A DNA stretch of 64,000 nt. Origin: a bacterium. Lineage in GTDB: Bacteria; Bacillota_I; Bacilli_A; Mycoplasmatales; Mycoplasmoidaceae. The notes under the pieces are model-generated. The model ran no database searches. It saw only the letters and a list, made by a program, of their open reading frames with translations, and was not told the DNA's origin. Positions 6,152-55,634 of the stretch are shown one piece after another. The position numbers and the translations under genes were made by a program. Numbering within the stretch: the stretch's first letter is position 1; each line of letters begins with the position of its first letter. The DNA lies in the NCBI GenBank assembly GCA_017645255.1, contig JAGCPI010000001.1, positions 20,680 to 84,679 on the forward strand. The letters run 5' to 3'.

Positions 6152-7615
6152 ATGAAAGACCTTGATTTAAATATCTTTCCTGTTTATTATGCCAAACAAT
6201 CTACTTATGATGCAATTTTGTCATTAGTTAATAATAATTACGCTTCCACCTTACCCTTAAATAATCATAATGCCCTTACTATTGAATATGAGCCATATTC
6301 CCAAACTTTAAAGTTTACTTTACACCAATGAGATATGCGGGTTGAATATTTTATTCAACAAGAAACTAATAATTTAAATTTTCATTTTACATTGTTAGAA
6401 GCCACTGCTATTCTAACTAGTCAAGGTAAGCATTTAACATTTAAAAGTAAATTTGGTACTTTTATTCCTTATTTAAAGCAAAAAGAAGGAATTGATCTTC
6501 CAATGGCATGTCTTTATTTACATTATGAACCAAAAATGCAACATAAAGATTATGCTGATCTTAAAAATTTATTTAATGATAGTGACACTAACTTAACTGA
6601 TACAATCATTACCATTGCTCCTGTTTCCTTTCAGTTAATAACAACTATTCAAAATCACTTATCTTGATTTCAAGATTGAAAGCAAATAATTAAATCAAGT
6701 AATGGATATTTGTTAATTGCTAATTCTAATAATCATCTTAATACCGTTTATTTAAATGGATTAGATTTACGTGATGAAATTACTTGTCAAATTTCCTCTT
6801 TTTTATATAGTTATGATCTTGATGCTACTTTAATTGATGAACCAAATGATGATTCACCAGAAAAGTGTCTTAATCAAATTCTTTGTTTAATTTTAGATGG
6901 ATTAGATGAAGAAGATAAAAAGAAAATTTACCCAACATTACTTAATAATGAACATGCTAAAGAATGAACCTTTAGCAGTGTGCAAATTTTAATCTTAAAA
7001 TACTTAAATAAATTAAATCCTAACCAATATGTCATTTATGCTAATGATGATTATCCATATCAAGATTATTTGCAATTAGCTGTTAAGGAGCATAAAACCA
7101 TTATCAAACTTAACAAAGATGCTTTTTTAAGCTTAAGGAATGAAATTGATTCGATTTATGTATTTGCTTTAAAATGAATGTCCGATAATTTAGTAAATGA
7201 ATATGCTAATGATGATTTAGATTTTAATGAACAAAATAACTTCAATACTTTGTTACAATTCATGGATTATTTTAAAAACCATTACGAATGGTTTAAGCAA
7301 AGTTTACTTAAAGATAAATTAAATCATTTAAGATGGGGAATTTATGAAAATTATCCGCTTGATGAAGGTACATATAGTTGGAGATTAGGTGGATGTATAA
7401 TTGCTCGTAGTAGTTTAAAAAGTTTGCCAACTTTATTTAATACTGCTTGTGATGCAGTGTGAAGATACAGTACTGACATTAGCTATAAAGATTTTCGGAA
7501 TGCATGATTAGCAAATACAATCAACTTCTTAAATTCTTACCATGTTAAAAAGCAAGATTGAAACCAATCACCAACCAAGCAGGAACTAAAAAATCAAAAT
7601 AAAGAATGATCATAA
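6152..7615 (+). CDS. GHKL-array paralog A, ATP site lost
   Basis: This is a 487-residue cytosolic protein (start MKDLDLNIFP) and a member of the tandem family. The expected G1 box is replaced by TLHQWDMRVEYF and the N box is absent, so ATP binding is unlikely. Family landmarks remain: SKFGTFIPYLKQKEGI (about 107-122), TVYLNGLDL followed by FLYSYDLDA, DEEDKKKIYPTLLNNE and the C-terminal GIYENYP with CIIARSSL. The RBS is AAAGAAAGGAAAA. Paralog B starts 17 nt downstream, so both probably share a transcript. Several W positions are TGA. Confidence 0.8.
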
Positions 7616-7632
7616 AAAGAAGGAAATTATTA

Positions 7633-9099
7633 ATGGAATATTTTGACTTGAATTTAAAAGCATGTTTTATTAACACGTGAAGTGTTAATGATGGCATTCG
7701 GAATTTAATTACTAACGCCATTAGACAATATCAAAATCAAAGTTACTTTGATAGTTTAATTGTCCAATATGATAAAAATACTAATTCTTTAAAAATTAGT
7801 GATGATGGGGTTGGAATCAACTTAAATGATTTTGTGCAACAAACTAATGATGAACAAGATAATTTGGCAAATGGTTTAAGATTAGCTATTTCTTCTTTGC
7901 TTGCTAATAAGATTAAAATTGTGTTTAATAGTGCCTTAGGTACTTTTACTCCTATTATTCGTAACAAAGATGGTATTAGTGAAAATATTACTGACATCTT
8001 TCTTAGTTACGAACCAAAAGCACCTAAACAAGCAAAATGATTTGGCCTTAAAACTCATCATAATGATTCTGAAAATGAAAACCAAGTAGTAAAAGGAACC
8101 CAAGTCATCATCAGTCCAATTGATGCTACATTCGTTGAAAATCTAAAGTTTTATTTTAGTTTCTTATTATCTTGAACAAAGAAGTTGGTTACGAAAGTAG
8201 GATATTTATTAGTAGCACCTAATGAAGCAGCCAATAATTTTTACTTAAATGGAGAAAATCTTACTTATTTTGATGAACGGGGAGATGCTCATGAAAACCA
8301 CTTAGCCTTTTCTTATGATGCCAATGCTAGTTATTTTGATCATGATTTAATTAAACGTAATAAACATCGAATTTGACAATTCATTCCTACTTGCATTAAT
8401 GCTATTTACGAAAATCTTGATGATAATGACAAGGAAACAATCTTTAAAGTAATCTTAAATAATGATGATTGTATTGAATGAAAAGAAGCCTTAATTCGTA
8501 AAACAATTGTTAAATACTATGCTAAACATCACGCAAATGATTATTTATTAGGGGTAGTTGATAGTGAAAATGAAATGTTCATCACGTTTGCAAAAAAAGA
8601 AAACAGAACTATTATTTGACTCTTTGATAATGATGAACTTGATGAATTAAAAAATGATGGAATTAATACGTTAGCTAACTTTGGTCAACAATATGTACTT
8701 GATCACTATCAACATTATGTTGATGTAGCAGATTTAACCGAAAAAGAAAGTACCAATTGAAATAATTTACAAGACTTTTTATATTATTTCATTAACCATA
8801 ATGAAAAAGTATTGAATGCGTTAAAGAAAATTAATAAAGAAAGTTTTAAGTTAAAAATTGTTGAAAACTTACCAGATAAATGAGGAATTTATCTTTATGA
8901 TGAAGAAGTAGGACTAATCGATAAAGATAGCATCACTGATCTTACCAAATTATTCCCTGCTGCTTGAAATGTTACTTGTCAAGCCATTGGAAATGAAATA
9001 AATGCGGAAGAATATCGTAGTCTTTGACTTGACAGCTTTATTTGTTTTGCATTTGATCACCAAGATGCAACAAAAAAGTCATCAAATAAAAATAACTAA
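7633..9099 (+). CDS. GHKL-array paralog B, ATP-binding motifs mostly intact
   Basis: This is a 488-residue protein (MEYFDLNLKA). The G1 box DDGVGI (57-62) and glycine-rich NGLRLAISSLLANKI are intact. The N box reads NLITNAI (24-30), with Asn24 where the catalytic Glu of GHKL ATPases normally lies. ATP could bind while hydrolysis is doubtful. The middle region has NNFYLNGENLTYFD and AFSYDANA. The C-terminal domain has KIVENLPDKWGIY and LIDKDSI. It follows paralog A by 17 nt and ends at a strong terminator. Confidence 0.85.
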
Positions 9100-9105
9100 T
9101 CTAAT

Positions 9106-9138
9106 AAAAGTAGGAAGAAAAAAACTTCTTACTTTTTT
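9106..9138 (+). terminator. Terminator after paralogs A-B
   Basis: A 12-bp stem with one G-T pair (AAAAGTAGGAAG / CTTCTTACTTTT) has an A7 loop and a T run. It lies 7 nt after the stop of paralog B. Confidence 0.85.
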
Positions 9139-9296
9139 ATTTACTTTACTCTTAAAAATAAGAAATCAATTATTTTCATGTTTTCTAAGATTTAAAGAAT
9201 GCTTTTAATTGAAATTAAAGGAAATTATTATATCGATAAATATAACTAGCAAGTAAAATAGATAACAAAGTTATTAAATCAACAGGAGAAAAATAA

Positions 9297-10712
9297 ATGG
9301 AATACTTAGATTTAAACATTAAACCAGTATTACTGGATAATGAAGCAATTACCAATAGCATTAGTAATTTAATTAGCAATGCAATTTTGCAATGTAACAG
9401 CCAAGAATATATTCAAAATTCAATTATTAATTATGATAACAATAGTCGTACGTTGCAAATTAAAGATGATGGAGTCGGGATTCAATTAGTTGATTTTGTT
9501 GCTCATTTAAATAGCAGTGCAAAAGGAATTACCAGCGGACTAAGAGATGCTATCAGCATTTTTTTAGCAAATAAAATTAATATTAAAATTACTAGTAATT
9601 TTGGTACTTTTACACCCGTGCTTCGTAATAAAGAAGTAAATGGAAAACAAACTCCATGCATCTTTATTGCTTATGAATCATCAGCATTAACTACCAATTC
9701 CCTTAAAAAACATGGCACGCAAATCACTTTAAATCCAATTAAGAAGCAAATCATGGTTGATTTAAAACCAGATTTTTCTTTTTTGCAAAACTGAACCAAA
9801 GTAATCACAACTAACCGTGGTAGCATTTTAATTGGTAAAACTAATACTAATCTTTATGTAAATGGTAAGAACATTACTCATTTTGAAGACAAGGATGTTT
9901 CTAAAAATCACTTTATTTTTTCTTATGATTTTAATGAAAATCCTCGCGAACCAATGTTATTTAATAAAACATATGAAGCATTGAAAAATGTTTTTTTATA
10001 CATTAACCAAATTTTGCAACAGTTAAATAATGAAGACAAAGAAACTATTTATGCAAAATTTATTAATAATGATAGTTCGTATGAATGAAGGGATGAAAAG
10101 ATTAGAAATACCATTATTAAATACCTTACTAGGTTAAATCCTACTAAGTATGTAATTGCTCTTTGAGTAGAAAAAAGTGCTACTTTTGAAAACTATATGA
10201 AACAAAAAAAGATTAAGGTAATTTGAATTAAGGATGAAGATGAATATGATAAATTAATCAGCGAAGGAGTTAAAAGTGTCTCTGATTTGGCTAAAATTGA
10301 TGGCGAAGAAGAAATAAACGAAAATACCTTTAAATTCATTGATCCAAATGATTTAAATGATAAAGAAAAAGAAAATTTGCAAACACTGTTACGTTTCTTA
10401 AACACCTTCTTAAATGAATCTGATTATATTCAAACAAAAAAGAAAACAACAAACTTGAATGTAAATACAGCCATGAATATTAAAATTAATGACAGTAAAG
10501 AATATCCCACTAATCTCAATGATTTTGATCATGACTGCATCATTATTGATCGTCGTTATTTATCAGATAACAAGGGTGAATTATTTGATCAAGTATCAGA
10601 TTTAGTTTTTGATGCAATCATGGATGATGATTTTAGTGGATTTAAAAAGGCTTGAGATAATACTTTAGTAAACGAAGTTTTTAAGCATTATCAAGAAAAT
10701 CAAGAAAAATAA
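9297..10712 (+). CDS. GHKL-array paralog C
   Basis: This is a 471-residue protein (MEYLDLNIKPVLL) with AGGAGAAA as RBS. The G1 box DDGVGI, SGLRDAISIFLANKI and SNFGTFTPV are intact. The N box is NLISNAI, again Asn24 for the catalytic Glu. The middle part has NLYVNGKNITHF and IFSYDFNEN, then NNDSSYEW and KYLTRLNPTKYVI. The C-terminal domain contains CIIIDRRYL. It is a single-gene unit, with a terminator before it and about 650 nt of non-coding DNA after it. Confidence 0.85.
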
Positions 10713-10795
10713 TAATTAGTAACATCATTAAATTAAATTAATTACACTTCAAAAAAATAACTTTCTAATTGAAAGTTAAGTAAACTATGACACTA

Positions 10796-10833
10796 AATTT
10801 CAATTTTTGGCCAAATTTCATGTCCTAGTTTAT
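10796..10833 (+). repeat. Copy of an IS3-type element end
   Basis: 38 nt match 52428-52465 with two differences; the last 23 nt (from CCAAATTTCATGTCC on) are identical. The other copy directly follows the 3' end of a decayed IS3-type transposase, so this one is probably a solo end left in the array. It is part of an inverted repeat (AAATTTC...GAAATTT-like arms) that could also act as a terminator. Confidence 0.6.
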
Positions 10834-10959
10834 ATCTTCTTTCTTTTTATTTGCTTTCTTGCTAAAAATAAAAATTCATTATTTTTAAAAATTATTTTCA
10901 AAAAATAATATAATACTAAGTCCTTCGAAACTTCCAGTTTCCGATCTATCTTTCAAATG

Positions 10960-10998
10960 AACTAGCATTATTTCTCAAAATGATGGCTAGTTTTTTCT
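10960..10998 (+). terminator. Terminator-like hairpin
   Basis: A 7-bp GC-richer core AACTAGC/GCTAGTT is extended by AT pairs and followed by seven T. It lies 250 nt past paralog C, so it could belong to a lost element. Confidence 0.55.
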
Positions 10999-11363
10999 TT
11001 TCATTGCTAATTTAGTTAATCGTAAATTAATAAGAATTTGTTAAACTAATGAAGCAATTTAATTATTTAGTCCCGTAGTTTCTTTATAGAAACTAAAAAA
11101 CTAAATGCAAAATCAATAAAACAAGTATCTTAATGATTAATAAATTTTTAACACAATTTTTTTTAATTGCGATTTTTTTCTATCCAATAAGAAAACATGC
11201 AACTTAAAAAATTAGTTAATGCTTGTTTTTATTAGCATTTGCTTAATTATTCTTACTTATTACCAAGAATAATTACCTGAATCCAACTTTAATGTAGCTG
11301 TCCTTTACTTGCAATTTTTAATTTAAATAAAATAAAAAGTAATTAAAACAAGGAGCAAACAAG

Positions 11364-12797
11364 ATGGAATATTTTGATTTAGACATCAAACCAGTATTAT
11401 TAAGTGATGACACAATTTTAAAAAGCATCATTGAATTAGTAAAGAATGCGATTGAACAATATAAAGACCAAGCATATTTTCAAAATTTGGTAGTTGATTA
11501 TAATAAAAATACTTGCACACTAAAAATTAAAGATGATGGGAGTGGAATTAAACTAAGTGACTTTGTTGAACACTTAGCTAACACGCAAGATTGAATGACG
11601 CATGGTTTACGCAATGCATTAAGCATGTTTGTAGCACACCATATTAACACCATGATTCAAAGTAATTATGGTACTTTTACACCAGTGGTTCAAAACAAGC
11701 AAGGAATTAGTGAACAAATTCCCTCAATCTTTATTGCTTATGAAAAAACACCAACGAGCAATAACAAGTGAGTTAATTTAAAAGATGTAGGTGATAATAA
11801 AAATGAAACGCATGGGACCGCCATTACCTTAAATCCCATTAGTCATGAAATGGTTGCAAAATTAAAATGATGATTCTCCTTTTTGCAATCATGAAAAAAG
11901 GTCATGAAAACTGAATTTGGAATGGTATTAGTTGCTAATCAAGGCACCATTAATAATTTCTTCTTAGATGGAGAAAATATGACTTTTAATGATGGAACTA
12001 ATCATAAAGGTTTACTCAAACTTACTTTTTCTTATGATTGCAATTCAGCTTCTTTTAATCCCGAATTATTTGCTAATGGTAGTCTTGGTGATTATTGAGA
12101 TAAATGCATTAGCACCATTTTAGAACATTTAAGTGATGAAGATAAACCAATGGTTTATGAACAATTATTAAATAATCATGATTCGGCTGAATGATCAAGT
12201 GCTTTAATCAGAAAAGTTGTCATTGAATATTATGCAAGATTGAATCCTAATAAATACTTAGTAGGAGTTTGAAAAAATGAAGATGAAAATTTTGTTAACT
12301 ATGCAAATGATGAAAATAAGGTAATTATTTGAGTAGAAGAACCTAGCGAATTACAAGCACTAAGTGATTGCAAAATTATGAGTGTTAATGAATTTGGCAA
12401 TCGCTATTTATTAAAGCATGCTCCAACTCAATACCCAATTAGCAAGTTAAGTTCAATCCAAAAAGAAAATTGAGAATTTATGAATAAATTTTTAAATTAT
12501 ATAATTGCTAATTATCCAGCCATTAAAGATGCTTTAAATGCAAATGATTTAACTAATTTTAATTTAGCTTTAGTTGACAAATTTGAAGGCCAACCAGTTA
12601 CTTATTTTGCTGCTCAAAATTTGATCTTAATTGATAATCACCTCCTTGATAAACATTATTGATTTGAAAGCATCCTTGATGCAATTGCTGAGGAATTAGC
12701 AAGTTTTGATAATTATGACCAATCTACGGATGTTTTATATAGTGCTTTCATGAATTTCCTTATTTCACAATTAAACAAAACAAGAATGAAAAATTAA
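11364..12797 (+). CDS. GHKL-array paralog D, catalytic Glu retained
   Basis: This is a 477-residue protein (MEYFDLDIKPVLL). It is one of only two array members with a complete N box: ELVKNAI, Glu24 and Asn28. The G1 box is DDGSGI (57-62) and the lid region THGLRNALSMFVA. SNYGTFTPV and IPSIFIAYE follow. Then come FFLDGENMTF and TFSYDCNSA, HDSAEWSSALIRK, ARLNPNKYLVGVW and a C-terminal domain with LALVDKFEG and LILIDNHLL. It is likely an active ATPase. Paralog E follows 51 nt later without a terminator. RBS AAGGAGCAAAC. Confidence 0.87.
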
Positions 12798-12848
12798 ATT
12801 AATTTTCTTAAAAGTTAAAAAGTACTTAAAAAAGAAAGGATAATCAAC

Positions 12849-14276
12849 ATGAAAAATTATGATTTAAATTTGGAATTTTGTCATATTGATGTTTTACCTC
12901 CTACAGAAGAATGTTTATGTTCTTTAATTACAAGTGACGTTACGTGAGTAATTCCTGATCACGCAGTCAAAATGGCTAGCATTCAATACAATCCCAGTGC
13001 TCAAATTTTAAAAATTGTGCACCACAATTTTTCTTTAAAAATATCTGATTTTTCTTTTTACAATTACATTCCTGAAATAGTGATGGTCCCTTTTCAAATA
13101 GCTGTGGCAACTTTAGTTGCTAACAACTATCACTTAACTTTTATTAGTAAGAATGGAGTTTTTAAACCAATTATTAAAGCAAAAGAACTTCATGGGAGCA
13201 AGAATCATGCTTTTATTCAATATGATTCATATCCCAATTACCAATTAACTTTAAGTAATTTCACCGAATTTCAATTAATTACAAAAGAATACCAACTAAT
13301 TTCTAATAATCAAAACAATGATACGACCATCATTGTTTCTCCGGTTGACAAAGATGCTTATGAATATTTACGAGCTCATTACTCGTTTTTAAAACCGTGC
13401 AAAGAAGTATTCTTAGCTGGTAAAGATAAAGTTTTAGTTCCCCTTGACCAAATAGGAGGTATTTTCTTTGAAGGTAGGCTTCTTTTTAACGAAATGCTTG
13501 AATGAACATTAAAACTACTTTATGATTATGAAATCATTGATGAAGATATTGATAGAATTGACAAAATAGAAACTGATATTTCTACTAAAGAAGGAATGTA
13601 CAAGTTAGTTTGTCACGCACTTGCCAATCTAAAAGATGCTGATAAAAATAAAATATTCTCTACTTTTATTACTCATCCAACCTGTGCCGAATGACAAAAT
13701 GATGAAATTCAAATGTTAGTAGCTAAATATTTAACAACTGCTTTTCCTAGTCAATATATTCTTTATAATGAAAAAGAATCACCAAGTGATTATGTTGCAT
13801 TAGCTAGAGCTAATCAACAAACCTTAATTCCCTTAAACCACAATGTGTATAGTGAACTTAGTTCCTTTGATCAAAATATCATTAAATGAGCCCATAGTTT
13901 TTTAGCAAAGAAATATGCTAATAACTTTTTAAATGGCAATTTAAGCATTAGTGAACAAAATAATCTTAATCTCTTAAAAAAATTCTGTAATTATTTTGCT
14001 ACTAGCTATTTTCCACTCAAACAATGAAGTAAACGCAAGCAAATTGAAGGTGTTAAATTTCTAGTCGTTAATGATTACATTAATCATGTTGGAACTTTAT
14101 TAACTGAATGAAATGTTGCCATCATTGATTATTTAAATTTAAAAACAATTGCAAATACATTAAGTGCTGGATGTGAAATAATTGCTCAATTTGAAGAAAG
14201 TAATAATCAAAATCAATTTAAAACAGCATGATTAAAAGCAACTATTGAATTTTTAAGTAAACTTAATTGAAATTAA
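12849..14276 (+). CDS. GHKL-array paralog E, ATP site lost
   Basis: This is a 475-residue protein (MKNYDLNLEF). The N box reads SLITSDV and the G1 position is VHHNFSL, so the ATP site is gone, but the fold landmarks stay: KISDF, AVATLVANNYHLTF, SKNGVFKPI and a C-terminal SKLNW-type helix. It is preceded by AAAGAAAGGA and lies 51 nt after paralog D, probably co-transcribed. The absence of stops over 1.4 kb argues that the degenerate copy is still under selection rather than a dead pseudogene. Confidence 0.8.
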
Positions 14277-14424
14277 ATTCTAATTGATTATGCACCACAC
14301 TAATTCTTTTCTTAGCAAAAAAATGACTGCTTTTTTCATTTATTGTTAAAAAAACACCCAGGTTTAAAAATCGAGTTATAATAAGTGGCACCATCAAAAC
14401 CACCTTAAAGAAAGAAGACAAAAA

Positions 14425-15939
14425 ATGGAATATTTTGACTTAAATATTAGTCCAATTACCTTAAAAAATGAAGTAGTTGATAAAGCAATTAATGACTTAA
14501 TTATTTACTTAATTAATCAATCAACCAATCAATCTTACTTTAAAAATCTAACCATTGACTATGGCAAGAATAGTAAGGTATTTACGATTAATGACAATAA
14601 GTTTGCCATTAATTTGCTTGCTTTTATCCAACAATTTAATTATCAAACAACTGAAATAAAAACTAATTTAACTAGTGCAATTAGCATTTTAGTTGCTAAT
14701 CAAATCAAGATTAGTTTCAAAAGTAGCAATGGTGTTTTTTATCCCATTATTCGCAATAAAGACATCACAAGTGTTCAAATTCCAAGTATTTTTATTGCTT
14801 ATGAAAAGTTAAGCAGCAAAGAAAATACCAGTTCTTTAGCATCTAACAAAACAGTAATCACCTTAAATCCTGTTGATTATTCAATAGTTGATGAACTTAA
14901 ATCTAATTTCTCATTTTTGTATTCCTGAACTAAGATTCTTCAAACAAAATATGGAATGGTTCTAATTGGAAGCAATCAAACTAACAACTTCTTTTTGAAT
15001 GGAAAAAAAGTTGTGATTCATAATTCTAATGAAAATGATGATAAGCATCACATGCCACTTAATATGATGCATTTTGTTTTTTCTTATGATTGCAATCAAA
15101 ATGCATTTAACTTGCCAATCTTTATTAATAAATATGAACCAAGCCAAGACGAATATGAATGTATTAATAAGATTCTAGAAAATTTAAATGATGTCGATAA
15201 AGAAGCAGTTTTTTCTAAAATAATTAATGATGATCAATCATATGAATGAAATAATCAATTAATTAAAACCACCATTATTGAATATTTAACCAAATTAAAA
15301 TCTAAAACCTACGTAATTGGCCAAAAAAATTCCCAACAAGCTGCCTATGAAGCATTTGCTAAAAAAGTTAACATCCATATTATTTGAATTAGCGATGATG
15401 ATGAATACAGAATATTGCATTATGACAAAAACATCCCAACTCTTAACGATTTTGAAGAAAAATATGGCCAAGATAATATTGATGTAGATAAACTAAAATT
15501 TATTGATCCAAATGATTTAAATAAATATGAAAAAGCAACTTTCCAAGTAATCAAGCGATTTTTAGATACTTTTATTGAACGTTTTATTGATTGAATGGAA
15601 GAAATGCATGATGGAGATGACGAATGATATGAAGAAGATCATATGGACCTTAATGATCTTAAAAATCTAAAGATTGTTGAAGGTTTACCATCTCCTAATT
15701 CTTGATATGATAATGGGAAAAGAATTGGTCTTCTTCAACGAACTGATCTTACTTCCTTATCGTGATGGTAATTATTTGAAGAAGTACGTGGTATAGTTCT
15801 AGCAGGTACCGAAGGCATTATTGATTGTGAATTTGATGACTTATGAAATGACACGATGGCACAAGAAATAGTAAACTGTTATGATAATCACCACGATAAA
15901 AAAAGCATTAAAACTACTAAATTAAAAGCAAAGAAATAA
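14425..15939 (+). CDS. GHKL-array paralog F, degenerate ATP site
   Basis: This is a 504-residue protein (MEYFDLNISPITL). The N box has Asp24 and Tyr28 (DLIIY). The G1 box keeps Asp57 but loses both Gly (NDNKFAI). The rest matches the family: NLTSAISILVANQI, SSNGVFYPI, IPSIFIAYE, NNFFLNGKKV, FVFSYDCNQN, QSYEWNNQLIK. The C-terminal part has an acidic stretch (MEEMHDGDDEWYEED) and a Lys-rich tail. It has its own RBS (AAAGAAAGAAG). It is followed by 400 nt without genes. Confidence 0.82.
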
Positions 15940-16281
15940 ATTAATTATCTGACAAAAAATAATTTTCTTAGCGACATTGATGCTTACCTATCCCCTTGCT
16001 TTAAAGTTGCTGAAACTAAGACAAAAGCATTTTTAAATTAAGGTGAATTATAATTTATTGTATGGTAAAAACGTAGTTTTACCTCGATGCTAATTATTAA
16101 CCACCAATTAATTATTTTTCACACATGCTTATTAATTAGCATTTAAATTTCTTCTTTTTGATGCTTTTTCTTTTTAAATTCCAATCTTTATAATCCATCA
16201 TAATTATTAGTAATTAGTTTAAAAGCATTAACGTATGAATGCTTTTCACTAAACAATAATTAAATAAATATTAAGTAAACG
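15940..16281 (+). other. Non-coding gap between paralogs F and G
   Basis: No gene is seen. It has a hairpin at 16219-16245 (AAAAGCATT / AATGCTTTT) and a smaller one near 16062-16081 (GGTAAAA / TTTTACC). Neither has a good T run. Confidence 0.5.
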
Positions 16282-16341
16282 AAAGGAAACATAATTTATT
16301 TTTGATTGTGATTTTTTCACATTCAAAATAAATAAAGAAAT
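16282..16341 (+). promoter_or_regulatory. Hairpin between Shine-Dalgarno and start codon of paralog G
   Basis: A good Shine-Dalgarno (AAAGGAAA, 16282-16289) lies over 50 nt before the ATG at 16342. Between them 16294-16310 pairs with 16318-16333: about 15 bp with one mismatch and one bulge, loop ATTTTTT. With the stem formed, the two sites are about 13 nt apart. Unfolded, only a weak AAAGAA is near the ATG. This could be a translational control element. Confidence 0.45.
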
Positions 16342-17808
16342 ATGCAAAATATTGATTTAAACATTTGCCTAAGTTATTTTACTAACGCAGATGAATACGA
16401 TATCATAGATGCAATTAGTGCACTTATTAAGAATGAATGAGTAAAACCTACTCCATTTAATAATAAAAAACAAATCACCATTAAATATGATTCTGCCATT
16501 CAAACTTTAAAAATTTGCAATAAGTCATGGACAATTAAAGCAAGTGATTTTATGCAAACTACCTTTATTAAACCTAATAGTCTTGTCTTATTAAGTGGAA
16601 TTATTAAATTGATGAAAAATAATTATCAATTAGAATTTAGAAGTAAATTTGGTAAATTCACTCCTTTTATTGCTCAAAAACAAGGCCTTGAAAACGCTGT
16701 ACCATCATTACACGTTAATGTTGAAGAACCATCAACTTCCCCATCTAATTGAACTGAATTAAAAAATGATTTTAATGAAAATGAAACAATAAATAATGAT
16801 GATGGAACTATTATCACTATTTGTCCAGTTAATGAAGAAATCATTGCTTTTTTAAAATACCATTTTTCATTTACCCAAGATTGAGATGAAGTACTTGATG
16901 CAAATGGTGATTATTTGCTAATTGATAAGTCTGATAAACCAAATAAAATTTTTGTTGATGGAATTGCTAAAGAATTCACTTTAGATGTTAATCCTCCACT
17001 TTTATACAGTTATGATCTAAACTCTAGTTTTCTAAATAAAGTTCGCGGAGATCATAGTGATGATTGATATAATCAACGAGCAATTTGCACTGTACTTTAC
17101 AATCTTAGTGATGAAGACAAGAAGCAAATTTATCCAATCATTTTAAACAATGAAAATTGTTACGAATGAACTTTACCAGAAGTACAACGAATTGTCGTTG
17201 AATTTTTAAGTAAACAAGCACCTGATAAGTACGCAATTTGCGAAGAAGATCATGATCCAGCTATCGATGTCATTGAATTAGTAAGAGAAACTGGAAGAAC
17301 ACTTGTTCCAGTTGCTGATGATATTTATAAGAAATTGAGCACACATGTAAAAAGTGTTTATGCTGTGATGCAAGAAGAACTTGTTAGCAAATATAGTAAA
17401 CCGGGTTTAACAAATGAAGATTTAAGTCCAAGCGAACAAAAAAATCTTCAATTACTAAAAGAATTTTTAATTTACTTTGCTAATCACTTTGATGAATTAA
17501 GAAAATGATTAAGTCATTACGAATTAGACCAAATCCCACTTGAAATTGTTGATGACTTACCTGAACATTGAGGAACTTACAGCATTGAATTGCGAAAATT
17601 AATCATTGATCGTAGTGTTCTAAGTGACACTGGTAAAACATTTAATTGTGCTAGTCTTGCCGTTAGACGTGGTTTTTCATTTGGACTAGATGATTATGAC
17701 TTTACTAATCTTTGACAAGACGCCACCATTAACTTTTTTGCTACTTTAAAATGCAACAAGTGTAATTGCCAAGCAGACCATGAATGCCAAGCAAAAGATA
17801 ATGAATAA
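16342..17808 (+). CDS. GHKL-array paralog G, ATP site lost, Cys-rich tail
   Basis: This is a 488-residue protein (MQNIDLNICLSYF). The N box is ALIKNEW and the G1 position CNKSWTI, so no ATP site is expected. Landmarks are SKFGKFTPFIAQKQGL, KIFVDGIAKEF, LLYSYDLNS, DEDKKQIYPIILNNENCYEW, EIVDDLPEHWGTY and LIIDRSVL. The last 16 residues are Cys-rich (CNKCNCQADHEC), unlike other members, and may bind metal. Paralog H starts 16 nt after the stop, so they share a transcript. The leader hairpin is described separately. Confidence 0.82.
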
Positions 17809-17824
17809 AAGTAAGGAGAAGAAA

Positions 17825-19291
17825 ATGGAATATTTTGATTTAAATTTACGTCCTGTTTTATTAAGTTACAAAGACCACATTCAAAGTGTATGTAATTTAA
17901 TTAATAATGCTATTAGACAATATCATTATCAAGAATATGCAACTAAACTAATCGTTGATTATGATGAAGCCACATCAACTCTTAGAATTAAAGACCAAGG
18001 AACAGGCATTAAATTAAGTGACTTTGTGCAAAAAGAAGATGCTAGTCAAGATTGATTTTCTACTGGTTTAAGAACTACAATTAGTGGTTTATTAGCAAAC
18101 CAAATTAATATTACTTTTAAGAGTAATTTTGGTACTTTTACGCCTGTAATTCGCAATAAAGAAGGACTAACAGAAAAAATTGCTTCCATCTTTCTTGCTT
18201 ATGAACCACGAGGTGCCAGAGTAAATCAATGAATTGATCTTAAATTTATTGATGCTGAAGATATTGCAAATAGTAATCATGGTACTGAAATTACCATCAG
18301 CCCAGTAGATGCTAGATTTGTTGCTAATTTAAAATATCATTTTTCTTTCTTGTTACCATGATCAGAAACAATTGAAACCCAATATGGTACTTTATTAATT
18401 AATAACCAATATGTTAATGATGTTTTTGTTGACGGCGAAAATATTACTTATAGTCAACAACCTGAACCAACTGCCGAAGACCAATCCCAACTAAGTTTTT
18501 CATATGATATTGACACAATGGCATTTGATAAAGAATTAATTGGTGATCGTTATAATGAACCAGAACGTTATGTGTTTAAATGCATCCGCAAGATTTATGA
18601 AGAACTTAATGATGAACAAAAAGAATTTGTTTTCACAACTTTATTAAATGACCACTTATCCATTGAATGAGACAACAAGTTAATCCGTGATTACATCATT
18701 AAATTCTTTGCTAAAACTAATCCAGATCAATATTTAATTGGTACGTGAGATGGTGAAAATGCTAATTTTGTTGAATTTGCTAAGAAAGCAAACAAAGAAA
18801 TCATTTGGGTAAAAGATGATGATGAATGTGATAAAGTTAGCAACTATGGAATTGAAAGAGTTGACGAATTTGGTTTAAAATATGCTGAACAAAATTACAC
18901 CAATTTTGTTAATATTAATCAATTAACAGCCAAAGAAAGAACCAATTGAGAAGCATTGCAATCATTCTTAACATACTTTGTTAAATCTAACAAAGAAATC
19001 CAAAGTCAATTAGCAAAGAATGATTTAGACTACTACAACATTAAGATTGTTGAAAATTTGCCAACCATTAAGAGTTTCTATTTATTTAATGAAGACACCG
19101 GAGTCATTGATCGCAGAATTTTAAGTTATAAATTTTCAGCTCTACTAAAAGGATGTGCAGAAATTGTATTTATTCCTACTGGTGACATTACCTGAGATGA
19201 CTTCAATCGAATCTGACTTGATAGCATTGCTAACTATATCATTGCTTGCAAAGAAGAAAACTCCAAAGCAAATAAATTTAATAAGAATTAA
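17825..19291 (+). CDS. GHKL-array paralog H
   Basis: This is a 488-residue protein (MEYFDLNLRPVLL). I chose this ATG over an in-frame one at 17780, which lies inside paralog G, because AAGGAGAAGAAA directly precedes it and the start matches its siblings. The G1 box is DQGTGI (57-62), glycine-rich STGLRTTISGLLANQI and SNFGTFTPV; the N box is NLINNAI with Asn24 for the catalytic Glu. The C-terminal domain has KIVENLPTIKSFY and GVIDRRIL. It is the end of the G-H unit, with a 13-bp terminator 30 nt after the stop. Confidence 0.87.
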
Positions 19292-19321
19292 TCTTTTTAA
19301 AATTTAACTTTTATTATCACG

Positions 19322-19359
19322 AAAATAATGAAGAAAAAAATCTTCATTATTTTTATTTC
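19322..19359 (+). terminator. Terminator after paralogs G-H
   Basis: A perfect 13-bp stem AAAATAATGAAGA / TCTTCATTATTTT with an A6 loop is followed by a T-rich tail. Confidence 0.85.
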
Positions 19360-19412
19360 CTTCAATAACTTTCATTGCTTTTGCTAAAATCAATCATGAT
19401 GAAACAATAATT

Positions 19413-19924
19413 ATGAATGGAATCGAACAAACTAACTGAACTAATTTATTAACCTATGATTATTCATCGATTAATAGCCACGCAATAACTGGTAATCATG
19501 CAAGTTACACTCAACTTCATTTTTGTATCGAAGAAAATGAAACGAAAATTGATTTGGATCATGATGAAGATAAAATAAATTGTCCTGGTAAAAAACAATT
19601 AATTTGTCATTTGCTTTCTCACTTTTATGAAGTAAAGCCATGAAGTGAAATGGATGGTATTACTTGGATGTTTTATCCTAAAAATATGGTTTAGAATTTA
19701 TTAAGTGTCTTAATTCTAATCAAGTTAGTAAAATTAAACTTAATTTCGTTTATCCCATTTGATTAGTTAAAGTGAATATTACGTTGAAAACTCATGCTAG
19801 TTGTAAAGATCTACTTAAAAAAATTATTAAATTATTAAATGAATATAACATTTTCTTTAATGATTGTTATTTTGTGCTTAAAAAAGCATGAAGACTGCAA
19901 TTAATATTTAGCAATAATTATTAA
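19413..19924 (+). pseudogene. Frameshifted gene with the shared C-terminal module
   Basis: Reading from the ATG at 19413 gives 93 residues (MNGIEQTNWTNLLTYDYSS...) to a TAG at 19692. Adding one A to the A5 run at 19680-19684 continues the frame as KKYGLEFIKCLNSNQVSKI and on to a TAA at 19922. The downstream part (KKIIKLLNEYNIFFNDCYFVL) resembles the ends of the proteins at 5168, 21899 and 25399. So this is a single gene of about 170 residues broken in a homopolymer. It could be a dead copy, a phase-variable gene or a sequencing error. No clear RBS is seen. Confidence 0.6.
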
Positions 19925-19942
19925 TAACATAAAGGAGTAAAT

Positions 19943-20233
19943 ATGGGAAGAAGAAAATCACCTTTATTTAAAACTATCATGACCATTACTGATGTAGTAA
20001 GTACAATTCACCACAAAATAAATAATATTCCAGTTACTACCAGTCCAAAACGGGGTACGTTTTTATATGATCTAAAGCAAGCACAAAAGCATGAGTTGCG
20101 AAGAAAGCGTTTAATGCAAGAAGAAGAACTAAAAGAACAACGCTTTCAATTAAAAATGGCTAAAAAGCAAGCTAAGTTAGAACAAGAAAGACAAAAACTA
20201 GCTAAACAACAAAATAAGAAAGTAAATAATTAA
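19943..20233 (+). CDS. Small basic coiled-coil protein inside the GHKL array
   Basis: This is a 96-residue protein starting MGRRKSPLFKTIM, with AAAGGAG 7 nt before the ATG. The C-terminal half (from about residue 45) is a long charged helix rich in Lys, Gln and Glu, predicted by eye as a coiled coil. The protein has no Trp or Cys. Paralog I begins 40 nt later, so they are probably co-transcribed. Function unknown; high charge would suit nucleic-acid or protein binding. Confidence 0.7.
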   Translation: MGRRKSPLFKTIMTITDVVSTIHHKINNIPVTTSPKRGTFLYDLKQAQKHELRRKRLMQEEELKEQRFQLKMAKKQAKLEQERQKLAKQQNKKVNN

Positions 20234-20273
20234 TTACTTATTTACAAAGTAGAAGAGAAAGGATTAAATAACA

Positions 20274-21743
20274 ATGGAATATATTGATTTAAACTTAAAG
20301 AATTATCCTAATAGCATCGATAAATCACTCCCAGCGGGATTATATGATTTAATTAGTTATGCAATTTTATTAAATTATGCTCCCAACAAATATGATGATT
20401 TAGATTTGAGTTATGATGAAAACAACCAAACTTTAAAAATTACTACTCATCGCGGAGTAATTGGTGCGAAGAACTTTTTGTATAATGATGAATGATATGC
20501 GAATTGATTGCTTCGCAACGCTATTAGTTTATTTTCATTCAATGATGTAAGTCTTACTTTTACTAGTAGTGAAGGGATTTTTAAAGTAATCGTAAGAGAT
20601 AAGCAAGATTTACAAGAAACTATTCCCAGCATTTTTATTAGTAAAGAACCAGTAGTTACAACTGCGAATTGAATCCCATTAAAAGACTTTGATGAACAAA
20701 TTGCTGATCATGATTTAACTACCAGTGGAACAACCATTTTAGTTCATCCCATTAGTTTGCTTGATCTGCAAGAAATTAAAGATAGTTTTAGTTTCTTAAA
20801 ATCATACCAAACTGTTGTTAACACTTTAAACAATAAATTATTAGTTCCTAAACCTAATAACCTTTCATTTATTTATTTAAATGGAGCACGTCAACAAAAA
20901 TACGAAGTGCAAAATCAAAATTTAAATAGCATTCACTTAATTTATGGCTATGATTTTGATTTGCACCAAAAATACTTGAATCACACCGAAAATGATTTTC
21001 AATCATTAGGTGACATTATGAGTGCAGTGTTAAGTGAATTAAACGAAACCCAACAACGCACTTACTTTCCAGCTATTTTCAATAATTCTCAATCTTATGA
21101 ATGATTAGCAAGTAGTGTACAAATTATTGTGACCTTAGCCATGAATAAATTTAATCCGCACCAATACTTAATTTATCATGAAGGTTATGAATACCGCAAC
21201 TTTTGAGATATTGCCAAAAAAGCTGGTAAGATTTTAGTCAAAGTCAAAGATAAAGCTTTTGATTATTTACAAGGTGAAGGGGTAACAACTTTATATAGTT
21301 TTGTGCAAAACTACATGAACTTTCAATATCCTCCTTCCAAAAATGAAGCCCGCAATTTAAACTTTGAAGAACGAACTAATCTAAAAATCTTAGCTAATTT
21401 TGTTGATAATTTTGTTAATGATTATCCCGAACTAAAAGAAACCTGAAAGAAACTAGAATTAAATAGGTTATATTTCGCGGTTTTTAGTGACTATCCTAAT
21501 CCTTATGGCACTTATTGGAAAGAATATAAGATTGCCATTATTGTTCGCAAGAATTTAATTAACATGGCAGACTTATTAATTGCTGGTAAAGAAATTGTTT
21601 ACCAAACATGTAATTTAAATCCTGACCAATTTAATAATAAGTGACTTGAAGCAACAATTAATTACTTTGTTAATAAATGTAATGACATGAAAAATGAACT
21701 TAAAAATAACAAAAAGGTTGTGCAAGAAAAGAAGCCTTCATAA
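20274..21743 (+). CDS. GHKL-array paralog I, ATP site lost
   Basis: This is a 489-residue protein (MEYIDLNLKNYPNSI). The N box is DLISYAI (Tyr for Asn) and the G1 box is replaced by THRGVIG. Kept are LLRNAISLF, SSEGIFKVI, IPSIFISKEP, FIYLNGARQ, LIYGYDFDLH, NSQSYEWLASSVQI and a C-terminal YGTYWKEYKIAIIVRKNL. RBS AGAAAGGA. It follows the 96-residue gene and is closed by a terminator at 21767-21800. Confidence 0.82.
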
Positions 21744-21766
21744 TTTAACTAATTAACTTTAAAACA

Positions 21767-21800
21767 AAATAAATGGCTCGCTAAAGTCATTTATTTTTTT
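21767..21800 (+). terminator. Terminator after paralog I
   Basis: A 12-bp stem with one mismatch (AAATAAATGGCT / AGTCATTTATTT) is followed by a run of T. Confidence 0.8.
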
Positions 21801-21898
21801 ATTGCTTCTATCTGGAATGATTGATTTACATCGGCTAATATTTTTCTTCTTCATGTTTTAAAGCAAAATATAATTTAAAAATAATTCAGACAAGTACT

Positions 21899-23671
21899 AT
21901 GGAAGAAAAGAAATTATTAAAAAATTTAATCGATTTAATTAGTTGAATGGTTAATTGAACTAAAGTTAGCATTAACCAAACCGGGATTAACTTAAATTTT
22001 GATGAAGACCAAAAATTATTAACTTTAATTATTAACAATCAAGCATTAATTTCCAATGAACTAAAATTATTTACTTTAACTATTGACAATAGTAAAGTAA
22101 TTAGTGACCACGAAATTATTACGGAATTATTTGCAAGTTTACTTGCATTTAACTTAAATGTCAAATTAACCATTAACAAAAAACAATACTGATTTAGTTT
22201 AGATAGCAATAATAACTTAGGTTACAGTGTAAGCAATGATCAAACACTAGAACTTAATAACGAAAGTATCATTCTTAAATTAAGTACGATTGATTATGAA
22301 ATTTATGGTGACTTAAAAACTAATTTTGCTATTTTTACTAATTACCAATATATCTTTAATACTAATGATGGAAATGTGCTTTTAGCGAATGATAATAAGC
22401 AAAATGCGATTTATTTTCACCAAATTAAATTACCAACTTTGAATTTAAGTAATGATAAACAACTTTTATTTAGTTATAACTTAACTTTATTAAATGACAA
22501 TTTATCTAATAATAAAATCATCAATAGCATTAGTGTTTTAAGTAATTCAATTAATCAATGATTTAAGATTGATAAATTAATTGCTAATTTCTTAAACAAC
22601 ATTAATGATGATTGCAAATTCAATGTGTATGAAGAAATTGTGCGTCATATACAATGTTATGAATGAAGTATTCATGCCATTAAATTACAAGTCATTCCTT
22701 TTTATAATCTTGCAACTAAAAGCGACTATTTCATTATTTGTTGTCCTAGTGATAATAACGAATTATTTAAGAGTTGAGTCGATTTAAAAACCCATGCTCT
22801 TATTGAATTAACACCAACTGATTATGAAATGCTTAAAAATAAGCATGTTTGCACTTTAAGCATATTTGCGAATAATTATCTAGCAAAAAACTATCACTAT
22901 GAAGTAGCAATTGATGAACTTAGTGCAATTGCTAATGCCAACTGCCATTGAATTAAACAAATTCTCGATGAATGATTAAATAATAATGAAGCATTTAAAT
23001 CGTTGTTAAATGATTTAAATATTAATGAAATTCCAATTGTTATTATTAATGAATTACCATTAGCATGCACTTGAATTGATAGTACTAAACAGTTATGGAT
23101 TAATAAAACAGTTTTAGAAGATCAAACTGATTTATTACACGAAGTAGCAACCGCATTTATTTACTTATTTAACCAATATCATTTAGACTTAACAAATTGA
23201 ATTAATAGTTTAATCACTTCCCAATGTTTATTAAGTGCAACTGATATTGAATCATCAGTTGATAGCAATCCTATAAATAGTTGTAATGAAGAACCAACTT
23301 CATCATTAATTAAAATGAGTTTTTGTTTACCACTTACTGAATTAAAATGAAGAGGTTACATTCCAGTTAAATACGTATTAAACAATCAAGAATATCAACT
23401 GGAAAGTTTTAAAGACATTTATGTTGATACTTGTGAATATTGTTTAAATCTTGATTCAGCAAAATTATTTCAATTCTTTAATGATAATCATCTTCAATTT
23501 AATACGACGGGAAATGACTTAACTAGAAGCAGGCAAATTCCTGGTACTAATTACTTCATTGAAACTAATTTAAGTGGAAAAGATATCTTGATGTGAACTA
23601 AAAAGTTATTAGTATTTTTTAGCATTGATTTAAATAATGTTTATTATTTAATAATGAAGAAAAATAAATAA
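21899..23671 (+). CDS. GHKL-array paralog J fused to the shared C-terminal module
   Basis: This is a 590-residue protein starting MEEKKLLKNLIDLISW. The N-terminal ATPase part is strongly reduced, with no G1 box. The middle and C-terminal regions align with the family: AIYFHQIKLP, LLFSYNLTLLN, CYEWSIHAIKLQV, VIINELPLACTWID, WINKTVL and DLLHEVATAF. After the usual end an extra 110 or so residues follow (VKYVLNNQEYQLESF to TKKLLVFFSIDLNNVYYLI). This extension is shared with the proteins at 5168 and 25399. TGA is used for nearly every Trp. No clear RBS precedes the ATG. It ends in a strong terminator. Confidence 0.8.
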
Positions 23672-23692
23672 TCATTAATACAACCTATAAAA

Positions 23693-23732
23693 AAAGCAAT
23701 AATTCCTTTCAAAAAAGGATTATTGCTTTTAT
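23693..23732 (+). terminator. Terminator after paralog J
   Basis: A near-perfect stem of about 15 bp (AAGCAATAATTCCTTT against AAAGGATTATTGCTT) is followed by TTTAT. Confidence 0.85.
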
Positions 23733-23893
23733 GTTAAATAATGGATATTTTGAATTGCTACCTAGATATTTTTAACAAGAAATTAATATTGATAAGCTAG
23801 TTATTTAACTTCTTGATTTGCAATTAAAGCAATAATAAGAAGTTAAAAATTGCTAATTATTATTTAATTCTCAAATTCTTAAACTTAAATTAG

Positions 23894-24451
23894 TTAGCGT
23901 GGTAATACAAAAACCCAGTTATAAGGAATTAAAACTTTATCAAAATCAATTGATTGGTGTGGTTTATCACTAATTAAACTTAAATCAAATTGCATTTTAG
24001 TTTGATCATCATTAAAAGTGATATTTAACTTTTTAATTAATTCTTGCATTTCATCATTCACTTGTAAATAATGATTAATTCCTTTTACCATCTTTTTAAA
24101 ACCTGGTTTATTTTTTAACTTAGCATTAACTTGGTCAGTTATATCTTTAAGAATCATTACACTGCCAAACAAGATAAGAACTAATTGACTAACAATCTCT
24201 AAAGTTTTTTTAATGGATAATTTGCTTTTATCAGCCACACTGTCTAATTCTTTTACCACCACGTTGGTATAAATCTTTATTAATTCTTGATAAGCATCAA
24301 AATGATCTTGCATTTTTTGCCAATCATTTTTATCAAAAATATCAAGAAAATTTTCTAACGAATCACATATTTCTTCAGCGTTAATCGTAATCAAGTCATA
24401 ATCTTTCATAAATAATTCATCAAGTTGATTTAAATATTCTTTATATGTCAT
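23894..24451 (-). CDS. Unknown helical protein
   Basis: This is a 185-residue protein from the ATG at 24451 (MTYKEYLNQLDELF), chosen because AAAGGA lies 8 nt upstream. An in-frame ATG at 24496 would add 15 residues but has no RBS. It is mostly charged amphipathic helix with one hydrophobic segment (IVSQLVLILFGSVMIL, about residues 90-105). It is convergent with the array's paralog J and downstream of the membrane-protein gene at 24735. No family recognised. Confidence 0.65.
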   Translation of the reverse strand: MTYKEYLNQLDELFMKDYDLITINAEEICDSLENFLDIFDKNDWQKMQDHFDAYQELIKIYTNVVVKELDSVADKSKLSIKKTLEIVSQLVLILFGSVMILKDITDQVNAKLKNKPGFKKMVKGINHYLQVNDEMQELIKKLNITFNDDQTKMQFDLSLISDKPHQSIDFDKVLIPYNWVFVLPR

Positions 24452-24693
24452 TCTTTTAATTCCTTTATTGCTCTTATCTTTATTATAAATGCTCATTAAA
24501 AAATTAAGTTTTTTAAGATTTAGTTACTGCATAATATTTAGATGTCATTAGTTAGTAAATTACCAAGTTAAATAATTTTTTGGTGGGGCAATAAAACAAA
24601 ACAAATTCAATTTTCATATCTATTAACTAACCTGTTAGCAATCTCATATTTAAAAAGCACCAAAATTAAGTAGGGAAGTAATTGCAAATCCCC

Positions 24694-24730
24694 ATAAAAA
24701 AACGTAACTTGAGCAAACTCAAATTACGTA
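24694..24730 (-). terminator. Terminator of the 24735 gene
   Basis: A 12-bp stem with one mismatch (ACGTAACTTGAG / CTCAAATTACGT) gives T7 on the minus strand. Confidence 0.8.
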
Positions 24731-24734
24731 TTTT

Positions 24735-25343
24735 TTATTTAGTATTATCGGCTTTATTTTGATAATACGCATCATATTTCGCAAAGAAATCATAAATGCC
24801 AAAGGTATACATTAGCATGTTCCAACGTAAGGCATGTTGATAATGCTGCTTTCATGCCTTTGGTTCATCTTTAAAAAATGCCATTTGCACAATTTCGGGA
24901 TATTCATTTAAATCTTTAGTTAAATAATCGTTTACTTGCATCTTCTTTAACTGTTCACAAGCTAACTCCGTAGCTTCATCAAAGTAATTTAACGTTTTAT
25001 ACGCCACATACTCAACAACACATAAAAAGAAACAAATTAAGATAATTCAAATAATTAGAAATGGTACATAATAAGTATGAATTACATGCGTTTTAGGTAA
25101 ACTTAAAATAAATAAGATGAAGAATAACCCAATCAAAATATAAGTCGGAATAATAATCATGAAGGTATGCTTAATTCTTAATTTAAACCTGGTTACTAAC
25201 TCATGATAGTTAGTAGGTAATTGCACATCAAACTTTGGTTTGGTTTGATTAATATATTGATCAATTTGGTAATTGGTAGCAACTTTAAATTTTGCTCGTG
25301 ATTTTCTAAAAAACATAAAATACTTATGATTAATAATTTTCAT
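24735..25343 (-). CDS. Small membrane protein, family also seen at 48-56 kb
   Basis: This is a 202-residue protein (MKIINHKYFMFFRK). Two membrane helices lie near residues 65-90 and 95-120. After them come DLNEYPEIVQMAFF and a Trp/Tyr-rich end (KQHYQHALRWNMLMYTFGIYDFF). The layout and YPE-QMAF motif match the proteins at 50099-50827 and, less closely, 52582 and 55635. It is divergent from the zinc-finger GHKL gene at 25399, with starts 56 nt apart. RBS weak. Function unknown. Confidence 0.7.
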
Positions 25344-25398
25344 TATTATCTTTTTTATTTTATGTTCTTTTACCAATAATGAAGGAAGAAAAAGCAAA

Positions 25399-27420
25399 AT
25401 GGAATTACTTGATTTAAATATTAACGAAATTAATAACAATTGAACCATCAATGATGCAATTAGAGAATTAGTTGCTAATGCAATTGATGAACATTTACTT
25501 GCTCACATTCCAAATGACATCAAGATTATTTATAATGATGGAACCAAAACATTAATTATTAGTGATGAAGGAAGAGGCATTAAAAGCACTCATTTCATTG
25601 AAAATATTAATAAAGAAAAGTTAAATAATCCTAAAGTCTTTGGTAAACTAGGAATTAACTTAAAGAATGCAATTGCCGTATTAGTTAACAATCATATTAA
25701 CGTCACGATTAAAAGTGATTTTGGAATTTATACTCCAGTCATTAGTGCTAAACAAGGATTAAATGACCAAATTAGTACGATTCACATTGAACGGCAAAAT
25801 AGCTTTAATGAGCAAAAAGGAACGATTATTTCTTTATCACCAATTTCCCAGCAGGAAGCAGACCAAGCTAATAATTTATTAACCTTGTGAAAACAAGGCA
25901 AATGAATTAATACGATTGCTAATCAACCTAATAATTCATCTTTAGTAGCTAATTTAAATCAGCAAATCATTGATTTAAAAACCCAACTAAAAGGAACTGG
26001 TAATGATGCATTAAAACTAGCTTCATTACATAATGAACTATTAGTTTTACAGCAAAAATTAACTGATAAAAATAGTGAATTAGATTGTATGCACCAAGAA
26101 TTAACTAATACTTCGAATCAGTTAAGTAAAATGGCTCAACAATTAACTGATAGTGTCCATGATAATAATGTTCTAAAAAATGATTTAACTACTACTAAAA
26201 CTGAAAACCAACGGCTCAAAGAAAACTTAACAAAAATTAACCTTGAATACAATGCAGTTGATGAATTATTAAAAGATCCAACTATCATTACAAACGAAGT
26301 TTGTCCTGATTGTGGGGGAAATTTAGTTTTACGAGAAAATCATAAAACTCATTCAAAATTTCTGGGATGCTTAAATTACCCAAAATGTACTTATATTAAA
26401 CATATTGCTCAACCCCAACCAGTAACACTAAAAACGAAAGTGCAAAAACTTCAAGCTGAAAATAAATCATTACACGAAGAAATAGTTATTCAAAAAAATA
26501 AATTTCATGCTGATTTAGAAGATGCTAAACAATCACTAAATCAACAATATCAACTGAGAGTTGATGATTGATACAAAAATATTAAAGAACAAACCCAAAA
26601 GACAATTAATGAATTGCAAACTAAATTGCAATCTAAGTTAGATCAAAATGATTCTGATTTAGTGGCTAAAACTAGTGAAATTGTTCAACTAAAGCAATCA
26701 CTAGCAAAATTAAGCATCGAAAAAAATGAACTTACTTCCCAACTTTATGACCAACAGTTAAATTATTTAAATGCAAATAATGAACTTAAAAACCAAGCCC
26801 ACACAATCAAAGAATTAACTGAAAAGTTAGACTTGGAAATTGAACATGCAAAAAATTTAACAAAAACTAATGATGATTTAGTAAAGCAAATTAGCAATTT
26901 GCAAACTGAAAATAATTCCTTAAAAGCAACTCAAAATAGTCAATTACCAAGTGATTTATTAAATCACCCTACTGAATTATTAAAGTTGGTGACTTTATTA
27001 ATTCCCAGTGCAAGAAAAACTACTTTAAATGAAAATTTAACAAATATTGCTAAATTACATGTTCTTTATGTATCAATTAACAATCAGTTATATCAAGTAA
27101 GTACGTGAGTACAAGCAATTAATTCAGTAATTAAAGTTTTATATACGATTTATCAAAGTGAGTTCATCCAAAAATTATGAGATTGTAATGAAGGCAAAAC
27201 TTACGATAATTTAACGATTAGTGAAAAGAATGAATCTTCCTTAGTATTTAAAGAAAATTTGCAACTAGCAAGTAATGCTGAAGACATTACCATTAAAGTT
27301 GCTGATACAATCTATCGTTTAATTATTGCAAACAATAAAATTGCTTTTATTGATTTAATTAAATATATTTTTAATAAACTTAATGTCTCATTAGACAATA
27401 TTTATTTAATTTGCTATTAA
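25399..27420 (+). CDS. GHKL ATPase with coiled coils and topoisomerase-type zinc finger (paralog K)
   Basis: This is a 673-residue cytosolic protein. Residues 1-160 form the best-preserved GHKL domain of the array: MELLDLNINEI start, N box ELVANAIDEH with catalytic Glu23 and Asn27, G1 box DEGRGI (56-61) and GKLGINLKNAIAVLV. Residues 190-290 and 345-540 are long coiled coils. Between them lies a C4 zinc finger, CPDC at 302-305 and C324/C330 with FLGCLNYPKC, of the kind at the end of bacterial topoisomerase I. The last 115 residues are the shared module (YVSINNQLYQVSTW to NKLNVSLDNIYLI). ATPase plus coiled coil plus DNA-type zinc finger suggests a DNA-binding machine, by inference. RBS AAGGAAG. 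Confidence 0.85.
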
Positions 27421-55609: not shown

Positions 55610-55634
55610 TTTCATTACCTTCTTATAAATAATA

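Follow-up and report, generated by a model that had tools for sequence, protein, structure and literature searches.

An old tandem array of GHKL-zincin-related paralogs, predicted to be catalytically dead, beside an McrBC–paraMORC cluster of a mycoplasma-like bacterium

The window analysed here is a stretch of 64,000 nucleotides of contig JAGCPI010000001.1 (assembly GCA_017645255.1), which has a GC content of 28.6%, reads TGA as tryptophan (genetic code 4) and carries mycoplasma-type genes. On its + strand a family of paralogous genes spans positions 5168-27420, about 22 kb of DNA, and consists of nine paralogs of full length (6152-21743), two that are partial (21899 and 25399; members are denoted by their start positions) and a probable truncated twelfth (5168). 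A preliminary description of the locus had reported eleven GHKL-ATPase paralogs sharing a common set of segments. All eleven open reading frames were present under code 4 and are related, but only 9 of 11 share all the named segments: 21899-23671 has neither the MEYFDLN start nor the FTPVIRNK segment, and the frame read there as 25273-27420 lacks the family middle and C-terminal part. That description also did not identify the family, and it mentioned neither the loss of the zincin nor the peculiar last gene nor the probable twelfth member; all are reported below.

In an all-against-all BLAST comparison the nine core proteins matched each other in 36 of 36 pairs (E-values from 4e-12 to 7e-126, 20-41% identity), while 21899 was related to them mainly through its middle and C-terminal parts (E-values down to 8e-15) and, for 25399, the relationship covers no more than the first ∼200 residues. 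Ahead of the first full-length gene, the frame at 5168-5998 resembles the C-terminal half of 21899 (BLAST E-value 6e-7 against residues 352-585), scores weakly with the array profile (E-value 0.008 for the best stretch, 0.19 overall) and is, by its sequence, a probable truncated member. Two types of paralogs, A and D, differ in the motifs described below. A-type genes lie at 7633-9099 (which may start at 7606), 9297-10712, 11364-12797 and 17825-19291, and D-type genes at 6152-7615, 12849-14276, 16342-17808 and 20274-21743, where 6152, 12849 and 20274 were assigned by BLAST, tree and motif alignment. The paralog at 14425-15771 lies outside the D clade, has a decayed pocket and stops early at an in-frame TAA, upstream of the last part of the family. 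It is followed, beyond further core genes, by the divergent 21899-23671, with an extra C-terminal stretch, and by 25399-27420; a 200-residue frame on the − strand between members (23894-24496) matched no family above cut-off. Starts were improved for 7633 (ATG; as a query this frame was taken from 7630, a TTA read as M), 17825 and 25399; the longer 25273 start would add a hydrophobic stretch. A relic search of the gaps gave nothing significant except 25399 itself, the best stretch being that past the stop of 14425 (E-value 0.09). The longest repeat family among the paralogs (155 nt, five copies) is only 62-73% alike to its reference, and thus the paralogs are old; between 4900 and 27500, the only entries of Tandem Repeats Finder are a 13-bp × 1.9 repeat at 4970-4994, which lies in the gap upstream of 5168, and an array within 21899.

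Matches of Pfam families to array members stayed below cut-offs, and among the core members scanned no PADLOC or NCBIfam result exceeded chance. Searching with 17825 retrieved 11 unnamed proteins with 40-98% identity from the sources ‘ena’ and ‘lgn’, which are probably metagenomic, and searching with the array alignment retrieved 10 proteins, two of them already known from the first search. When 395 genomes of one class were searched, two weak matches were obtained, among them P0012, a protein of 473 residues that has a GHKL start and, C-terminally, the motif HECIH. A search with P0012 gave 4548 relatives among 7996 candidates scored, of which the 120 listed, thus at least 120, carry PF25856 and one bears a UniRef name beginning with ‘MPN635 N-terminal’. 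The PF25856-type layout, a GHKL module followed by an S5-like part and a C-terminal HExxH zincin, defines a widespread family for which we know of no function. Profile-profile alignment (hhalign) of 18 array-type and 13 PF25856-type sequences gave a probability of 99% and an E-value of 2e-18 over 401 columns, collinear and reaching into the HExxH helix. The array shares with this family (e.g. a Ruminococcus bromii ‘ATP-binding protein’) the 401 collinear columns, the xFDLNI start, the GHKL core, the FSYN segment and a C-terminal zincin-like frame, and differs in having no HExxH, no intact LNRER, a shorter lid and 11-12 amplified genes. Precomputed PF25856 matches were found for P0140, an ortholog of 21899, and for neither the other nine proteins of the alignment search nor the 11 of the 17825 search.

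In the tree, a single clade (support 100/100, stem length 1.99) unites the nine core members with ten database relatives and is nested among single-copy GHKL-zincins of the mycoplasma order; within it the four D-type proteins group together (95/86), two on long branches. In the order of genome G287, 7 of 298 genomes gave matches, four of which are full-length and single-copy, each with HExxH, and none of 135 genomes of one family had a full-length relative (in a search run without a positive control). Calling the expansion unusual was thus fair. Large tandem families of mycoplasmas are usually surface antigens; no signal peptide was seen in the array proteins, as judged by eye only. As far as the comparison of sequences goes, the array arose long ago, by tandem expansion within one lineage, from a PF25856-type GHKL ATPase-zincin gene that is single-copy in other genomes of the mycoplasma order. 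The array family is present in databases and functionally unnamed as far as searched, and the array itself is a new variant.

Two of the eleven members were folded with AlphaFold, the well-kept A-type 17825 (mean pLDDT, the predicted local distance difference test, of 87) and the decayed D-type 16342 (pLDDT 84), and both models matched structures of the N-terminal or N-terminal plus middle domains of Hsp90. The models thereby support a GHKL fold in the array, as had been claimed, resembling the Hsp90 N-terminal and middle domains. For the five members whose fold had been put up for checking (B, C, D, H and K, letters taken in gene order), the model of ‘H’ (17825) supports a GHKL fold, and the others are homologous to it in sequence. 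Although Hsp90/HtpG provides the nearest solved folds, the array differs from it in low identity (9-19% in the listed rows), in the lack of any Pfam Hsp90 match among the 11 members and in another C-terminal domain.

Twenty residues were scored for motif retention in an A-type set of four window and 16 database proteins. In intact relatives all scored residues were present (11 of 11). The N-box Asn, the G1 Asp, both G1 Gly and the GT Thr were retained in all 20 A-type proteins, and the last G2 Gly in 19, whereas the catalytic N-box Glu was gone in 14 and retained only in six 11364-type proteins, the ATP lid was 7-8 residues shorter in those aligned, and the HExxH as well as the Asn and first Arg of LNRER were gone in 20 of 20. 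Of the window members, 7633 and 9297 keep the five pocket residues without the N-box Glu, and 11364, whose database orthologs are 83-90% identical, keeps Glu and DxGxG without lid or LNRER. In the D-type, the G1 Asp and both G1 Gly were gone in all four proteins; the four 21899-type proteins retained none of the scored pocket residues, and in 14425 the pocket Asn and glycines are gone and the frame stops ahead of the HExxH site. A HExxH at the conserved place was absent from all 28 testable sequences (20 A-type, four D-type and four 21899-type; 25399 was compared over 165 residues only), a HExxH-like string of P0008 lying away from the aligned position. According to a passage of Iyer et al. 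(2008, PMC2292703), the S5 domain usually supplies a basic residue that might act like a finger. The full set of an active GHKL ATPase (N-box Glu, DxGxG, lid/G2 and S5 Lys/Arg) is complete in no core member, and the word ‘ATPase’ is thus doubtful; only 25399 has a nearly complete set. The array proteins other than 25399 are predicted to be catalytically dead. The selective retention of five pocket residues in the A-type argues for selection, and from the roles of the motifs retained and lost we infer that A-type proteins would bind ATP but hardly hydrolyse it.

The last gene differs. Over the first 165 residues compared, 25399 retains RELVANAIDE, DEGRGI and most of the G2 loop, i.e. the N-box Glu and DxGxG are present, and the array profile matches its residues 1-154 (E-value 2e-24). 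A coiled coil and a zinc ribbon of the topoisomerase (Top1) type (PF01396, E-value 2e-11) take the place of the zincin, and no S5 part was found. In a tree of the N-terminal part (184 columns), 25399 branches as the sister of the entire array (98/92), adjacent to the single-copy protein of genome G580 (99/94), and it is 41-46% identical to three single-copy homologs of the mycoplasma order and 36% to the fourth. From its motifs, 25399 is likely the one working ATPase of the set.

On the − strand, a McrB-McrC-paraMORC cluster ends 213 bp ahead of 5168. It comprises a McrB-like AAA_5 protein at 3308-4954 (PF07728, E-value 5e-17; NCBIfam McrB, 2e-40, under its cut-off), a McrC-like protein at 1866-3290 (PF10117, Pfam E-value 3e-54) and a paraMORC/MzaB-like GHKL ATPase at 29-1450, which is above the PF13589 cut-off (Pfam E-value 1e-21) and matched NF041932 (MzaB) with an E-value of 4e-51 and 173.9 bits, at a cut-off of 850. 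The array itself was considered as paraMORC/MzaB and rejected: all 11 members were under the PF13589 cut-off, NF041932 was absent for the four members scanned, and the paraMORC at 29-1450 gave no phmmer match to the array. Passages of PMC12137116 and PMC8011034 describe, respectively, VcSduA, a known defence protein in which a GHKL domain is fused to Shedu, and paraMORC genes found near restriction systems. With VcSduA, a defence protein, the array has a GHKL domain in common, and with paraMORC the restriction neighbours, but the families differ from that of the array.

Genomic contexts were read for three of the four full-length homologs of the mycoplasma order (the fourth contig is 4 kb), with a Pfam scan of ten chosen neighbours, four of which had no family. 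Restriction-modification genes lie near the single-copy gene in 3 of 3: a D12 methylase and DpnII at 3.1 kb in G634, an Eco57I/ResIII restriction protein at 3.2 kb and a T5orf172/DUF4357 protein at 90 bp in G589, and an N6/N4 methylase and MjaI endonuclease at 3.7 kb in G580. The chance of a restriction locus within 3.6 kb is roughly 1-12% per genome if there are 2-10 such loci, a post hoc estimate with n = 3. Two methylase classes were counted: PF01555 has about three sites in G634 and two in G580 but is absent from G589, and PF02086 reaches its cut-off at two sites, both in G634, and nowhere in G589 or G580. The G580 homolog has transposase-like genes on both flanks (by eye), and a repeat array resembling CRISPR (clustered regularly interspaced short palindromic repeats) with a 66-bp period (L095:9500-16001) starts within about 1 kb of it. 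Inside the window, 49500-49976 (−) is a possible IS30-like transposase remnant, by eye like the copies flanking the G580 homolog (Pfam HTH_38, E-value 0.22).

Other features lie to the right of the array. A lipoprotein-like protein of 2190 residues (by eye) is encoded at 27689-34261 (+), with a weak immunoglobulin-like match (E-value 0.003). Four paralogous small membrane proteins are found on the − strand at 48418-49020, 52582-53181, 54929-55663 and 55635-56219 (BLAST E-values 4e-67 to 9e-6), and two more pairs of paralogs are 50827/53253 and 56294/57831. The leucyl-tRNA synthetase (LeuRS) at 59098-61011 (−) has 637 residues; most genomes match it in two pieces meeting near residue 235, where they carry an insert, the editing domain. 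Among 395 genomes searched it is closest to that of G287 (51% over residues 3-626), a frame of 636 residues with 20 in-frame TGA. The LeuRS of Mycoplasma mobile also has no editing domain.

We favour, with a probability of roughly 0.45, that the array is a GHKL-zincin expansion turned into pseudo-ATPase adaptor or sensor subunits that surround a single ATPase likely to work, with a probable role in defence; the sensor or adaptor function, the pairing, the ligand recognition and the defence role are what we infer. The ancestor would be a restriction-associated, ATP-gated zincin which was duplicated; the 25399 line would have kept the ATP motor and replaced the protease with a coiled coil and a zinc ribbon of nucleic-acid type, and the remaining copies would have become pseudo-ATPases of two grades. 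Three classes are distinguished, A (pocket kept, HExxH gone, Glu mostly gone), D (DxGxG gone) and 25399 (motifs nearly complete). By analogy with Hsp90- and MORC-type clamps the proteins would probably pair via the GHKL domain: 25399 would be the ATP-driven member touching nucleic acid, A-type proteins would stay locked on bound ATP and split it little or not at all, and the D-type, in which ATP binding would be poor or absent, would supply partners. The middle and C-terminal domains, which have diversified, may recognise ligands, most likely phage- or restriction-linked, so that the array would be a set of sensor or adaptor subunits acting with the adjacent McrBC-paraMORC cluster. A non-D gene lies 16-155 bp after the D gene in 4 of 4 cases, and these gaps are shorter than those that follow A genes (one-sided p = 0.03), a hint that unlike subunits are produced in pairs. 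Pairs of unlike GHKL modules are plausible because P0013 (823 residues), like P0015 (772 residues), combines two GHKL modules and only one C-terminal HExxH in the same chain (by eye). A bolder version, which we regard as improbable, is a combinatorial immune-type receptor set, in which ATP-locked A and nucleotide-poor D pseudo-Hsp90 subunits pair and feed the 25399 clamp and McrBC, with the diversity held in the dead subunits. In this version the subunits, differing in specificity, would perhaps complete each other's broken active sites, 17825-type proteins being without Glu and mostly with Arg and 11364-type proteins with Glu and without Arg.

Several observations weigh against the favoured explanation. 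Eight of the ten 17825-type proteins have an Arg at the position of the second Arg of LNRER, and the N-box Glu persists in all six of the 11364 type, so that ‘dead’ is a prediction only; D-type proteins retain the GT Thr in 4 of 4 and the N-box Asn in 2 of 4. For 25399, ATPase activity is likewise only predicted, because the match to the array is limited to residues 1-154 and one G2 glycine is changed. One member (14425) has an early stop, and the D-then-non-D arrangement is expected by chance in 15 of 210 cases (0.07). For the defence role proposed earlier, the McrBC and paraMORC genes of the window and the three readable relatives speak in favour, but this is neighbourhood evidence only, and by eye no restriction genes were present in two non-mycoplasma contexts (G125, 12.4 kb; G902, 11.8 kb). 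PADLOC gave only weak coiled-coil-type matches for 25399 and none for the three other members scanned.

The nearest solved folds being Hsp90 N-terminal and middle domains, the proteins could instead be a chaperone or scaffold set outside defence, Hsp90-like pseudo-chaperones which hold host or cell-surface proteins, and the right-hand neighbours (the lipoprotein-like giant and housekeeping genes, by eye) would suit this. The sporadic distribution (4 of 298 genomes) and the restriction-modification neighbours of relatives argue otherwise, as does the zincin which relatives carry in place of the Hsp90 C-terminal domain, and we consider such a set rather unlikely. Phage-related signals could point elsewhere, to counter-defence or mobile-element cargo, with the array proteins as relatives of phage RIIA-type proteins, either domesticated or element-borne. 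Two of the four members scanned match the functionally uncharacterised phage family PHROG 6077 (7633, E-value 2.5e-5; 25399, 1.6e-9), four phage records match the relative P0012, and the named top BFVD matches of 17825 are mostly phage proteins, with four rows named RIIA or rIIA-like (E-values 1.5e-6, 1.5e-3, 3.1e-3 and 5.8e-3). RIIA proteins have an N-terminal GHKL module and a variable C-terminus; the best of these matches is to KVP40 RIIA, but the listed chains are longer (689-887 residues) and the matches are structural. Moreover, tblastn of phages, plasmids and viral contigs gave no array relatives, no integrase or phage structural gene was noticed in the window (genes by eye, about 20 Pfam-scanned), and the paralogs are old and diverged, which makes cargo of this kind quite unlikely.

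Very unlikely, in our estimation, is a gene graveyard of duplicates decaying once activity was lost. The incomplete catalytic sets of all core members, the early stop of 14425 and the long D branches would be expected of it, but 10 of 11 reading frames are open across 471-673 codons, the five A-type pocket residues are kept in 20 of 20 proteins, and 17825 and 11364 have full-length database orthologs with 57-98% identity.

About 22 kb are devoted here to apparently intracellular proteins in which the fold and part of the ATP pocket are kept and the chemistry would be lost, a clear case in which the diversification of predicted pseudo-ATPases next to a restriction cluster can be tested. It also connects the restriction neighbourhoods of mycoplasmas with a GHKL-zincin family that is widespread and has no name.

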